Below are positions 4,814 to 41,551 of a stretch of 64,000 nucleotides of DNA, in pieces. The DNA is from Croceicoccus naphthovorans (GTDB lineage Bacteria; Pseudomonadota; Alphaproteobacteria; Sphingomonadales; Sphingomonadaceae), in NCBI RefSeq assembly GCF_001028705.1, contig NZ_CP011770.1, positions 3,227,501 to 3,291,500 of the forward strand. The letters are read 5' to 3'. Under the pieces are notes generated by a model. It saw only the letters and a list, made by a program, of their open reading frames with translations, was not told where the DNA came from and searched no databases. The position numbers were made by a program, and so were the translations under genes. How positions within the stretch are numbered: position 1 is the first letter of the stretch; each line of letters starts with the position of its first letter.

Positions 4814-6040
4814 ATGTCGGTGCTTCCCGTCGCGCCTGTCCCGTTCTTCGCGGACAAGAACCGCGCCTTCTGGCGGTTGCAGCTGCTCGGTTGGGGCGGC
4901 GCGATGGTGCTGCGCGCGGTGTCCAGCCTGGCCAATGCCCAGCCGCTGACGTTCCTCGTACTGGTCGCCATCGCGACGCTGACCGGCTTTTCGCTCTCGC
5001 TGATCCTGTCGGTGCTCTATCGCCAGCTGATGAACCGCCGCGCCATCGTGACGTGGGGCGCGACCGCGATGGTGCTGGCGGCGGCAGTCGGCGTCTATGC
5101 CTTTATCGATTCGTGGGTGATCTCGCTCTATCGCCCGACTGCGGAGCCGGGGTTCGCGCAGCTGTTCCTTGGCGTGTTCTACCTCGATCTCACGCTGCTG
5201 GGCGCGTGGTCGGCGCTCTATTACGCAATCAACTTTTACTTGCAGGTGGAAGAGGCGAACGACCGGCTGCTGCTGCTGGAAAATCAGGCGACCAGCGCGC
5301 AACTTGCTATGCTGCGCTATCAGCTGAACCCGCACTTCCTGTTCAACACGCTCAATTCGATCAGCACGCTGGTCCTGCTGAAACAGACCGAACCGGCAAA
5401 CGCGATGCTGTCGCGGTTGTCGAGCTTTCTGCGCTATACCCTGATCAACCAGCCAACCGGACGCGTCACCATCGCGCAGGAAATCGATACGCTGAAACTC
5501 TACCTCGATATCGAGCGGATGCGGTTTGAAGAACGGCTGCGCACGCATTTCAGCATCGCGCCCGACGTGGCGAAGGCGCTGCTCCCCTCGCTTCTGCTGC
5601 AACCGCTGGTCGAAAACGCGATAAAGTACGCCGTCAGCACGCAAGAGGCCGGGGCAGAGATTACCGTCCGCGCCGAACGCATCGGCGACCGGCTGCGCAT
5701 TACCGTGTCGGACACCGGCCCCGGCATTCCGCATGGGACGAAAGCCAGCAAGCTGTTCGGTAAGGTTCACGGCGATGGCGCACGGTCGACCGGCGTCGGC
5801 CTCGTCAACATTCGCGAAAGACTGGCGCAGGCCTATGGCGAGAACCAGCATTTCGAAATCCGATCCCAACCGCAAGATGGGTTCGCGGTAATCATCGAGA
5901 TCCCCTTCGAAACCGATGAAGAAATCGAACCCGAACCCGTCCGGCAGTCCGGCGCAGGCCCGGTTTCCGCGATTCGTCAACGGCTTGCGCGCGTCGATTC
6001 CGCCCCTGAAACCTTGTCGCCCGCAACCCGTTCTACCTAG
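4814..6040 (+). CDS. LytS-family sensor histidine kinase
   Basis: About 408 residues from ATG 4814. The first 150 residues contain four hydrophobic segments (for example LTGFSLSLILSVLYR), so it is an integral membrane sensor with no obvious periplasmic ligand domain. The His_kinase (PF06580) block has LNPHFLFNTLNSI with phospho-acceptor H174, and the HATPase part shows N-box VENAIKYA and G-box DTGPGIPHG. A start at ATG 4700, overlapping the upstream stop as ATGA, is possible and would add 38 residues, but that stretch is arginine-rich and reads like non-coding DNA, so I prefer 4814. The LytTR response regulator follows 28 bases downstream. The signal sensed is unknown. Confidence 0.87.
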   Translation: MSVLPVAPVPFFADKNRAFWRLQLLGWGGAMVLRAVSSLANAQPLTFLVLVAIATLTGFSLSLILSVLYRQLMNRRAIVTWGATAMVLAAAVGVYAFIDSWVISLYRPTAEPGFAQLFLGVFYLDLTLLGAWSALYYAINFYLQVEEANDRLLLLENQATSAQLAMLRYQLNPHFLFNTLNSISTLVLLKQTEPANAMLSRLSSFLRYTLINQPTGRVTIAQEIDTLKLYLDIERMRFEERLRTHFSIAPDVAKALLPSLLLQPLVENAIKYAVSTQEAGAEITVRAERIGDRLRITVSDTGPGIPHGTKASKLFGKVHGDGARSTGVGLVNIRERLAQAYGENQHFEIRSQPQDGFAVIIEIPFETDEEIEPEPVRQSGAGPVSAIRQRLARVDSAPETLSPATRST

Positions 6041-24849: not shown

Positions 24850-24868
24850 ATCCGGTCTGGTTTGTCAC

Positions 24869-25038
24869 CTAGTGGTGGGAACCGGCGGATTCAATGAAAA
24901 CCAGCCTGTTGCGAGTCGTTAGCATTTGTGCCCACTTCGGATCGATGGATATTTCCACCGCGCGGGCTTGATCCCGCACATCGAAGGTGCAAAGAATCAT
25001 TTCGCGAACCGCAAAAGTGGTCGCGCTACCGAGTTCAG
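24869..25038 (-). other. leader DNA between the small ORF and the suf regulator, no assured gene
   Basis: A minus-strand frame (24869-25000, 43 codons, MILCTFDVRDQ...) ends here but has no Shine-Dalgarno sequence. The stretch contains TGCGGGATCAAGCCCGCG (about 24963-24980 read on the minus strand), a hairpin of GCGGG/CCCGC. Both readings may be fortuitous. The region would be transcribed if the upstream structured leader is the start of the suf mRNA. Confidence 0.3.
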
Positions 25039-25146
25039 TTAGAAAATAAACGAGTACTGGCGTGGCCAGCGGCGAGTGTGCTGACACACACTCTCCCATC
25101 GACCAAAGCGCCAGCGGCGATAAGCACGTACGAATACGCGTTTCAT
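25039..25146 (-). CDS. 35-residue arginine/tryptophan-rich small protein
   Basis: ATG at 25146 is preceded by AAAGGAGGTGACG, a near-perfect complement of the 16S rRNA tail with a 5-base spacer, the strongest ribosome-binding site I see in the window. The frame ends in TAA at 25039-25041. The product begins MKRVFVRAYRRWRFGRW and has 10 arginines, 4 tryptophans and one cysteine; it has no hydrophobic segment apart from the final YSFIF. It is out of frame with the longer unconvincing minus-strand frame 24869-25378. It could be a nucleic-acid-binding or regulatory peptide, or a leader peptide for suf. I know of no named family for it. Confidence 0.55.
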   Translation of the reverse strand: MKRVFVRAYRRWRFGRWESVCQHTRRWPRQYSFIF

Positions 25147-25243
25147 CGTCACCTCCTTTGTCCAAGCTGGCAGAGACCAGCACCTCCGAGGAGCCTCGTG
25201 CCCCTCGCCTCAAAAGAGACCGAGGATCGGAGGTCGGACAAAG
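25147..25243 (-). ncRNA. structured 5' leader (three-way junction) preceding the small ORF
   Basis: Read on the minus strand, four helices form from perfect complements. P1: CTTTGTCC (25243-25236) with GGACAAAG (25163-25156). P2: ACCTCCGA (25234-25227) with TCGGAGGT (25189-25182). Inside P2, CCTCG (25225-25221) pairs with CGAGG (25207-25203), capped by a TTTT loop. P3: GCTGG (25181-25177) with CCAGC (25170-25166). P1 ends directly at the Shine-Dalgarno sequence. The word GGAGGT occurs both in P2 and in the Shine-Dalgarno, so the ACCTCC strand could pair with either. That is the architecture of a translational switch; no known riboswitch class is recognised. Confidence 0.55.
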
Positions 25244-25376
25244 TGGTAGCGCGACCGTTAAGCATGATTCCCAAGTGAACCGCTTGTGTCTACCGGACTC
25301 GGTTTGTTCTATGCGGCTTATCAACAGCCTGGTGCCGCATCGACAGGGCGAAACGCCTCTGCCATAGGCGCTCGCC

Positions 25377-26432
25377 ATGGTCTATTCGCTGCTGCGTCCG
25401 CTGGTGTTTCGTTTCGATGCCGAAAGGGCGCATGGCGCGTCATTGGCGGCGCTGAAGGCCCTGCCCAGCTCTCTGATGGCCAGCCCGCCCCGGCCCGATC
25501 CGGCGCTGGCGATGACGGTGGCGGGGATCGCGTTTCCCAATCCGGTCGGCATGGCGGCGGGCTTCGACAAGAACGGCGAAGTGCCCGACGCGCTGCTGCG
25601 CTGCGGATTCGGGTTTGCCGAACTGGGCAGCGTGACGCCGCGCCCGCAGGAAGGCAATCCGAAGCCGCGCCTGTTCCGACTGGCCGAGGATCACGCGGTC
25701 ATCAACCGGATGGGCTTCAACAACGAAGGCGCGGCGGCGGTAGAGGCGCGGATGAAGGCGCGCGCCGGGCGATCGGGAATCGTCGGGATCAACATCGGCG
25801 CTAACAAGGACAGCGAAGATCGCGTCGCCGACTATGCCGAAATGACGCGGATCATGGCGCCCTATGCCAGCTATCTGGCGGTGAATATCAGCAGCCCGAA
25901 CACCCCCGGACTGCGCGCCCTGCAGGACGAATCGGCTCTGACCGGATTGCTCGATGCGGTGCTGGCCGCGCGGGGTGCAGCCAATGGAATCGAAGGGGCC
26001 CCGCCGGTATTCCTGAAAGTCGCGCCCGATCTGGAGCCTGCCGATATCGACGCCATCGCGCGGATCGCAATCGACAAGCAATTGGGCGCGCTGATGGTGT
26101 CGAACACCACGATCAGCCGACCTGCGCTGGCATCGAAGCATCGCGACGAGGGCGGCGGGCTGTCGGGCGCGCCGATCAAAGCCCTTGCGCTGCAACGCTT
26201 GCGCGATTTCCGGCGGGCCACGGGCGGACAGATTCCGCTGATCGGCATCGGCGGCATCGCCACTGCGGAGGACGCGTGGGAACGGATCTGCGCCGGGGCC
26301 AGCCTGGTCCAGCTTTACAGCGCGATGGTCTACGAAGGACCGGGCATCGCGGCAAAGGTCGTGCGCGGCTTGCCAAAGCTGATGGCGCGTGACGGGTTTT
26401 CCTCGATTGCAGAGGCGGTTGGCAGCGAATAG
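25377..26432 (+). CDS. pyrD: quinone-dependent dihydroorotate dehydrogenase
   Basis: PyrD oxidises dihydroorotate to orotate in pyrimidine synthesis and passes electrons to ubiquinone. The 351-residue class 2 enzyme has the N-terminal amphipathic helix that docks to the membrane (SLLRPLVFRFDAERAHG), FPNPVGMAAGFDKNGEV, the catalytic-serine loop VNISSPNTPGLRAL and FMN phosphate-binding LIGIGGIATAEDAWERICAG. Start ATG 25377. It is divergent from the structured leader and suf operon; the promoter must lie in 25244-25376, which has no strong consensus. The GGT gene follows after 10 bases. Confidence 0.95.
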   Translation: MVYSLLRPLVFRFDAERAHGASLAALKALPSSLMASPPRPDPALAMTVAGIAFPNPVGMAAGFDKNGEVPDALLRCGFGFAELGSVTPRPQEGNPKPRLFRLAEDHAVINRMGFNNEGAAAVEARMKARAGRSGIVGINIGANKDSEDRVADYAEMTRIMAPYASYLAVNISSPNTPGLRALQDESALTGLLDAVLAARGAANGIEGAPPVFLKVAPDLEPADIDAIARIAIDKQLGALMVSNTTISRPALASKHRDEGGGLSGAPIKALALQRLRDFRRATGGQIPLIGIGGIATAEDAWERICAGASLVQLYSAMVYEGPGIAAKVVRGLPKLMARDGFSSIAEAVGSE

Positions 26433-41477: not shown

Positions 41478-41551
41478 TGCCCCGTCGTCTAATGGTAAGA
41501 CTACGGACTCTGACTCCGTCAATTGAGGTTCGAATCCTCACGGGGCATCCA
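41478..41551 (+). tRNA. tRNA-Gln (anticodon CUG)
   Basis: The 74-base sequence folds as a tRNA: acceptor stem TGCCCCG/CGGGGCA, a D arm with TAATGGTAAGA, anticodon stem CGGA/TCCG with loop CTCTGAC reading anticodon CTG, and a T arm GAGG-TTCGAAT-CCTC. The discriminator base is T and CCA is encoded. Glutamine identity fits both the anticodon and the weak first pair typical of tRNA-Gln. It is alone, with no other tRNA in the window. Confidence 0.97.

Follow-up and report, generated by a model that had tools for sequence, protein, structure and literature searches.

A short basic peptide gene within a predicted RNA clamp, inserted between pyrD and iscR of Croceicoccus naphthovorans, belongs to a mobile mini-gene family that may work like type I toxin–antitoxin modules

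The Mini-Gene Lies Within an Insert Between pyrD and iscR

The window, i.e., the whole stretch of 64,000 nt from Croceicoccus naphthovorans that was analyzed here, contains between pyrD and iscR a small ORF on the minus strand, which is preceded by a structured leader. The following features were assigned at this locus, each given with the evidence on which it is based:

24935..25340 (approximate), no strand: insert of about 400 bp that is missing in two congeners, ends uncertain by about 20 bp
25264..25292, minus: promoter-like site TAGACA (25292-25287), 17-nt spacer, AATCAT (25269-25264); promoter scan
25245..25256, minus: P0 left arm GGTCGCGCTACC, predicted 5′ end; pair probability 0.98-1.0
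25236..25243, minus: P1 left arm CTTTGTCC; fold, covariation, and RNAalifold consensus
25227..25234, minus: P2 left arm ACCTCCGA; fold and covariation count, absent from the RNAalifold consensus
25194..25225, minus: inner hairpin, predicted with 12 pairs and a single bulge; fold only
25182..25189, minus: P2 right arm TCGGAGGT; fold and covariation count, absent from the RNAalifold consensus
25166..25181, minus: P3 hairpin GCTGG...CCAGC (25181-25177/25170-25166); fold and covariation, absent from the RNAalifold consensus
25156..25163, minus: P1 right arm GGACAAAG, overlapping the Shine-Dalgarno sequence; fold, covariation, and RNAalifold consensus
25152..25159, minus: Shine-Dalgarno sequence (SD) AAAGGAGG, half within P1; sequence and predicted pairing
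25039..25146, minus: 35-codon ORF MKRVFVRAYRRWRFGRWESVCQHTRRWPRQYSFIF plus stop; conservation, match to PHROG 21154, predicted beta hairpin
25019..25030, minus: P0 right arm GGTAGCGCGACC, 8 nt past the stop; pair probability 0.98-1.0
25000..25016, minus: weak terminator-like hairpin past P0; found in one scan, whereas a second scan reported no sense terminator here

Thirteen congeners were compared at this site. Two of them (L281 and L282) have pyrD beside iscR in the 1.2 kb examined and both lack the insert; the remaining 11 gave no match there past the pyrD start and the sequence just ahead of pyrD. Since L281 and L282 present the pyrD-iscR junction without the ~400 bp, the unit is probably an acquisition of this lineage and probably does not belong to the suf operon. 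The relatives of the window copy in its own group (type A) adjoin GTA, MBL-nuclease, and other genes. Thus, control of iscR/suf by the leader, as proposed in a preliminary description of this DNA, is unsupported.

The Leader Is Strongly Folded but Matches No Known Riboswitch

The leader proceeds from P1 via P2, the inner hairpin, and P3 to AAAGGAGGTGACG, which is followed by the ATG at 25146. All four helices of which the preliminary description had spoken were recovered in place on the minus strand, and the leader stretch folds far better than shuffled sequences (z-score -5.05, none of 200 shuffles as good). In the predicted fold, P1 takes up the first half of the SD (AAAG), and most of the ATG is likewise engaged in pairing (unpaired 0.09). 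Compensatory changes, counted in the six sequences of the window's subgroup, are evident for P1, where 5 of 8 pairs are changed on both sides and 89.6% of the cells are paired, while P2 (2 of 8 pairs, 75% of cells paired) and P3 (3 of 5 pairs, 70% of cells paired) are weaker. The unguided RNAalifold consensus of the same six sequences keeps P0 (see below) and P1, loses P2 and P3, and places instead a hairpin that overlaps the P2 right arm. A leader with conserved pairing is thereby confirmed as far as P1 is concerned, and to a lesser degree for P2 and P3. Among the type-A loci, the partner-swap signal of P1 is modest, 181 of 20,000 permutations being as good.

The preliminary description had proposed an ON/OFF scheme, in which the strand ACCTCC pairs either within P2 or with the SD, with suf as a possible target; we considered it as a model of a metabolite-responsive leader. 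Indeed, P2 is part of the window fold and the motif GGAGGT is present twice in the leader. However, the alternative ACCTCC/SD pairing on which the switch depends has a predicted probability of about 0, its pairing with the SD copy is not kept in L011 or L100 (alignment by eye), and a conserved link to suf is missing. It had also been stated that no named riboswitch matches, and this agrees with our Rfam 15 search of the window, in which the sole match at gathering score was a distant tRNA and the best of the others had E-values of 3.1 and 4, so that no Rfam family was assigned to the leader. A ligand-sensing riboswitch is likewise unsupported: conservation is strongest in a clamp that joins the two ends of the RNA around the gene, and in other family members antisense signals take its place. 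Altogether, a metabolite-responsive suf leader is highly improbable. A tRNA gene is located at 41478-41548 (plus strand) of the window.

A Covarying Clamp Encloses Leader and ORF

The clamp is formed by the 12-bp helix P0, in which 25256-25245 pair with 25030-25019 on the minus strand, and which the preliminary description had overlooked. When P0 is included, the z-score of the fold drops to -6.99. The promoter-like site listed above is the only one within 24860-25400 (shuffles yield 0.2 on average), and the RNA start predicted from it, at about 25257, is the base that adjoins P0. A helix P0 of 12–18 bp occurs in 14 of 14 non-redundant type-A loci, the window included; this count leaves aside L106 and L094, which both have the sequence RRWP and are otherwise different, and with L106 counted it becomes 14 of 15. 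Neither of these two belongs to the 46 clamp loci described below.

Several lines of evidence demonstrate that P0 is conserved as a pairing. Within type A, the arms paired with their own partners yield a mean of -29.9 kcal/mol compared to -15.4 kcal/mol for mismatched partners, and none of 20,000 permutations reaches the mean of the own partners. RNAalifold finds P0 unguided in two alignments. In the window's subgroup (six sequences) 7 of 12 P0 pairs are changed on both sides with 100% of the cells paired, and 7 of 16 pairs are changed on both sides in the other subgroup (eight sequences, several of them GTA-linked). Taking P0, P1, P2, and P3 of the six sequences together, with the inner hairpin uncounted, 17 of 33 pairs are changed on both sides, whereas shuffles give 5.8 and none out of 500 as many. 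For the whole family, we used a gap-free test, in which the own partner was better than all 40 controls at 41 of 173 non-redundant loci (4.2 expected). In 34 of these 41 loci the left arm is located at -130 to -101, and likewise in 34 the right arm is located 5–29 nt past the stop. The gap-free test replaced a gapped duplex test that was weak (16 of 173 best-ranked, 5.6 expected), we think because long interrupted pairings swamp it. Thus, a 5′ end that pairs with the 3′ part around the ORF, as known from hok and aapA1, is seen here by covariation and by folding.

Two further observations concern the strand on which P0 acts. When only Watson-Crick pairs were allowed in the helix seeds (51 loci), the pairs of other kinds comprised 27 G-U, 4 A-C, and 3 others, and this excess of G-U over A-C indicates selection on the sense RNA strand; a preliminary count (41 G-U, 9 A-C, 26 other) was biased, the loci having been picked with G-U allowed, and was replaced by the one given here. 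In addition, 13 of 46 clamp loci carry TTGAC at a distance of 31–40 nt ahead of the left arm, with at most 2 in any other 5-nt bin, compared to four scattered matches on the opposite strand; the window carries TAGAC at this site. These data bear on the idea that P0 is a DNA feature, namely the terminal inverted repeats of a small transposable unit, which might be moved, e.g., by nearby IS1595-type transposases. Such a transposase cluster is indeed present at 21 of 173 loci and the unit does move between sites. Nevertheless, the bias toward G-U and the fixed distance of TTGAC from P0 at 13 of 46 clamp loci speak against a DNA repeat, the ends of the window insert lie elsewhere than P0, and P0 occurs in only 7 of the 21 IS1595 loci. 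This explanation therefore appears very unlikely. The window insert itself does not show the traits of a transposable element with terminal repeats: the P0 arms do not lie at the insert ends and comparison with the two congeners revealed no clear target duplication.

With regard to translation, removal of the P0 right arm lowered the mean predicted SD accessibility from 0.35 to 0.28 (folding, 46 loci). Since the predicted accessibility falls slightly without the right arm, the clamp by itself would probably not hide the SD, and an activation by 3′ trimming in the manner of hok or AapA1 is not predicted. It may instead be that the clamp protects the mRNA or restricts translation to complete transcripts.

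The ORF Encodes a Conserved Basic Peptide

The downstream ORF noted in the preliminary description proved to be a conserved gene with mostly third-position changes. Its product in the window has 35 residues and is rich in arginine and tryptophan. Within 24 core codons, the window copy and L009 are different at 1 first, 2 second, and 16 third positions. Among the 91 pairs of 14 loci the corresponding numbers are 423, 358, and 1055, and 765 of the differing codons are synonymous compared to 512 that are not. For most of the 14 loci some first and second codon positions are fixed, as pattern loci had been chosen by CGN codons; L009, L010, L011, L019, and L039 were chosen otherwise and leave the codon picture unchanged. 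Thus, the peptide is under coding selection, and a small ORF with conserved coding, as in type I systems, is present.

Searches of Pfam and NCBIfam gave no match to the window peptide, in line with the earlier statement that no named peptide family fits. For two relatives, a single match below threshold was obtained, to a zinc ribbon (E 0.095) and to Lsa23 (E 0.019), respectively. A search of the PDB by sequence returned a single irrelevant match (E 1.7), and no description of the peptide was found in open PubMed Central papers. The peptide does match PHROG 21154, with 5.7e-06 for the window copy and 1.9e-31 for one phage member; this entry comprises phage proteins that are listed without an annotated function or an RNA architecture. 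AlphaFold predicts for the window peptide a two-strand hairpin of residues 5–13 and 16–24, with a mean pLDDT of 74, a pTM of 0.36, and a pLDDT of 92 in residues 11–20. Across the family, the peptides comprise about 25–52 residues and are usually basic, with a mean net charge of +5.9 (range 0 to 11, 173 loci). Besides the residues that are fixed by the search pattern (see below), V-5 (158/173), V-3 (169/173), and P+19 (153/167) are nearly invariant. In L013, near 5640-5740, an in-frame 72-nt internal repeat within the peptide ORF gives rise to two copies of the hairpin motif.

The Family Is Spread Over Proteobacteria, Their Phages, and Plasmids

Among 298 genomes of the host family, eight gave a match in a DNA search, including the window's own genome. 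Five others (L002–L006) carry the same peptide, and the other two are short matches with no convincing peptide copy in the DNA around them. With a wider peptide profile, a match at E 1e-4 was obtained in 20 of the 298 genomes, indicating a sporadic occurrence. The source genome harbors two more members. The first (L036, C2:168910-168993) has a clamp and a sense terminator; the second, which is chromosomal (L038, C1:1805500-1805574), has a sense terminator, by eye also an antisense terminator below the T-run cut of the scan, and an IS1595-like gene after the mini-gene.

Beyond the host family, we searched with a DNA pattern for YxRxRxGxxExVxxHxR, which was found in at least 120 viral stretches and 102 genome stretches. 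After matches that lay inside long frames or lacked a usable start had been discarded, 203 loci were kept from the pattern, 224 with 21 early loci added, 213 with flanks, and 173 after removal of redundancy. The pattern matches are mostly from alpha-, beta-, and gammaproteobacteria, together with a few records from Bacteroidales, Acidobacteria, and Actinomycetota; among these few non-proteobacterial matches some are metagenome bins and some of them chance. The setting of the family is thus mainly proteobacteria with their phages and plasmids. Members were found between the cI and N genes of lambdoid immunity regions and on plasmids, namely those of Acinetobacter and plasmids of ~4 kb from E. 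coli, so that together with the window insert the mini-gene is repeatedly met on mobile DNA. DNA of the lambdoid-phage copy (at least 80% of a 371-nt query, counted as DNA matches) occurs in 232 of 5426 complete E. coli genomes and DNA of the plasmid copy in 9 of 5426. One match to the phage copy is located in the Sp5 prophage of E. coli O157 Sakai (L274, ECs_1184-ECs_5705), where the RefSeq record has no annotated gene. The motif YxRxRxGxxExVxxHxR was also seen inside frames that run on for about 50–250 residues (L134, L229, L249, L260, L263), and it is possibly a small domain of larger proteins.

Clamp and Antisense Signals Substitute for One Another

Among the 173 non-redundant loci, 46 (including the window) have the clamp, 64 have an antisense promoter, 2 have both, and 31 have neither layout. 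The antisense signals stand out clearly from the background. Antisense -10 elements peak sharply at -85 to -45, where they were found in 64 of 173 loci compared to 9–21 in ten other intervals of equal width, and 61 of the 64 antisense promoters fall between -80 and -56; the promoter scan was tuned to E. coli-like promoters. Antisense terminators upstream of the start codon were detected in 81 of 173 loci (shuffles 23), with a peak 150–175 nt upstream, and in 77 when counted together with clamp and antisense promoter, and sense terminators past the stop in 74 of 173 (shuffles 16.5). The control strands are also above shuffles, with 30 (13.5) for sense terminators upstream and 17 (9.5) for antisense terminators downstream. 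An antisense terminator or promoter is present in 102 of 173 loci, and in 41 loci promoter and terminator combine to a complete antisense unit with a median length of 100 nt. The nearest upstream gene of these 41 units is oriented with the peptide gene in 24 cases and against it in 11, and is absent in 6. With the upstream gene on the peptide's strand in 24 of 41, the antisense promoter cannot generally serve a divergent gene. LexA boxes were no more frequent in the leaders (2 of 173) than in the control (4).

The clamp loci are poor in these signals. Only 2 of the 46 have an antisense promoter, 5 an antisense terminator, and 3 a sense terminator (Fisher 9e-9, 3e-8, and 2e-9, respectively, whereby the exact p-values are inflated by the non-independence of related loci). 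In 9 of 39 peptide clusters (3 of 9 when a looser cut is applied) both layouts are represented, and thus the split does not cleanly follow the peptide type. The window copy itself has no antisense terminator, and its best antisense promoter scored 4.2 against a cut of 5.5. Hence, an antisense RNA that pairs with the toxin mRNA, as is characteristic for type I systems, is not indicated by antisense signals at the window copy.

Arginine-rich peptides such as lambda N and BIV Tat bind RNA, and it could be that the family peptide, an arginine-rich predicted hairpin, binds the structured RNA from which it is made, the two acting as a ribonucleoprotein, autoregulatory, or antitermination element. 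The positive net charge, the predicted two-strand hairpin, and the strongly folded RNA around the ORF would fit such a role, and the conserved R, G, E, and H suggest a specific partner, several of these residues being fixed by the search pattern. On the other hand, 127 of 173 loci have no clamp and commonly show the antisense layout instead, so that there is no single RNA site shared by the family. We consider this possibility quite unlikely.

Neighboring Genes Differ Between Clades

The neighbors of the mini-gene vary from clade to clade. L009 is flanked by a clpA-like gene (named by eye) on one side and by an MBL-fold gene on the other, and in L010 the MBL gene is found on the same side as in L009. 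In several sphingomonads (L060, L070, L073, L143, L012/L013) the gene is located inside a GTA cluster on the strand opposite to the portal (by eye) and terminase genes. At 23 of 173 loci, the neighbor belongs to a cluster whose representative contains XRE and M78 domains and scores as RmrA of RosmerTA. Further recurrent neighbors are small XRE proteins (16 of 173 loci), AAA_13 ATPases scoring as PDC-S06 (13 of 173), and a cluster that was taken by eye as DUF5343-like (13 of 173), of which the tested member L022 has no Pfam match; L155, from a smaller cluster, does match DUF5343. One neighbor cluster of 15 loci was disregarded, as it proved to be an upstream extension of the peptide frame itself. 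L200 has as neighbors a DUF5343-like gene (by eye) and an IS1595-like transposase gene.

When 100 proximal ORFs were compared with 100 distal ORFs (100 of 106 eligible loci), AAA_13/PDC-S06 was found in 9 of the proximal ORFs and is absent from the families listed for the distal ones. Among the families listed, which are the first 25 of 30 and 28 (PADLOC) and of 49 and 73 (Pfam), the same applies to the PrrC model (7 versus none) and IS1595 (5 versus none), whereas capP was found in 4 versus 1. From this recurrence it might be assumed that the peptide regulates or triggers the adjacent defense or immunity genes (XRE/M78 peptidase pairs, PrrC-like AAA_13 ATPases, DUF5343-like genes), whereby the RNA control would keep it off until phage infection or induction. 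However, none of the clusters exceeds 23 of 173 loci, the window lacks such a neighbor, and the neighbors are mutually unrelated. One peptide family acting on many unrelated systems is a less simple assumption than an independent module that gathers in the same islands. A role as regulator or trigger of defense genes is therefore unlikely.

Proposed Function and Comparison With Known Systems

Taken together, the window copy belongs to a large family of mobile mini-genes, whose members are predicted to encode a short, usually basic peptide on an RNA-controlled mRNA. In the class of the window, transcription presumably begins at the P0 left arm, and the 5′ end and the stretch past the stop would pair as a clamp (12–18 bp in the window's group) around leader and ORF. 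Since P1 partly covers the SD, little peptide would be made unless the RNA is remodeled. In the other class, an antisense RNA of about 100 nt, starting within the leader, would take the place of the clamp. The peptide is most likely an effector that is harmful or costly if over-made, and the unit would then act like a type I toxin–antitoxin system. We thus favor, with a probability of roughly one half and judging from sequence and folding models, a self-contained unit whose effector peptide is under RNA control and which works like a type I toxin–antitoxin or exclusion module of mobile DNA. Because the toxicity is predicted and the window copy lacks antisense signals, we liken the unit to a type I module and do not file it in this class. 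It is possible, and here put forward only tentatively, that the family constitutes a mobile RNA–peptide module of a new kind, in which cationic hairpin peptides, distributed over phages and plasmids of proteobacteria and over loci rich in defense genes, stand under two interchangeable RNA locks (clamp or short antisense RNA) and serve as infection- or loss-sensing effectors outside the known toxin classes.

If the favored reading holds, the RNA-controlled modules known from mobile DNA would gain a widespread peptide family. Similar peptides under two RNA controls also provide a natural experiment, which leads directly to the question what each control serves. Moreover, since the mini-gene recurs next to PrrC-like and RosmerTA-like genes, a role in phage conflict can be tested.

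With respect to known systems, ptaRNA1/XCV2162 (RF01811) is a mobile, plasmid-borne antisense RNA of a 5′ leader, which also occurs in Xanthomonas and on plasmids. The antisense class described here is alike in having an antisense RNA of the 5′ leader and a mobile setting. As a candidate, ptaRNA1 was rejected, as RF01811 has no match at the Rfam gathering score in the window or in 18 relatives; at this score, the 18 relatives (of 173) gave tRNAs only. The candidate symR, which reached 15.5 bits on the plus strand of the window against a gathering score of 61, was rejected as well. PHROG phrog_21154 shares the peptide match with the family and differs in being described as a phage protein cluster without an RNA architecture.

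The hok mRNA of hok/Sok also contains a long-distance interaction between its 5′ and 3′ parts. In Helicobacter pylori aapA1 (aapA1/IsoA1), a 5′–3′ interaction silences the mRNA (PMC8167048). The mini-gene has in common with both systems a short ORF, a strongly folded mRNA, a 5′ end that pairs with the 3′ part, and a mobile or accessory setting. There are three differences. By charge and hairpin prediction, the peptide is basic and hairpin-like and not a hydrophobic membrane peptide as most type I toxins are, a trait that is typical but not obligatory for this type. Clamp and antisense signals substitute for one another instead of acting jointly. Finally, in the folding models the SD does not become more accessible when the 3′ arm is taken away. 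As regards the non-membrane type I systems SymE/SymR and RalR/RalA, both toxins are larger proteins than the peptide described here. These two toxins are described as nucleases and not as membrane peptides, and the antisense RNA SymR over the symE 5′ UTR silences symE (PMC8167048). An antisense RNA over the 5′ UTR of a toxin gene resembles the antisense class of the present family.
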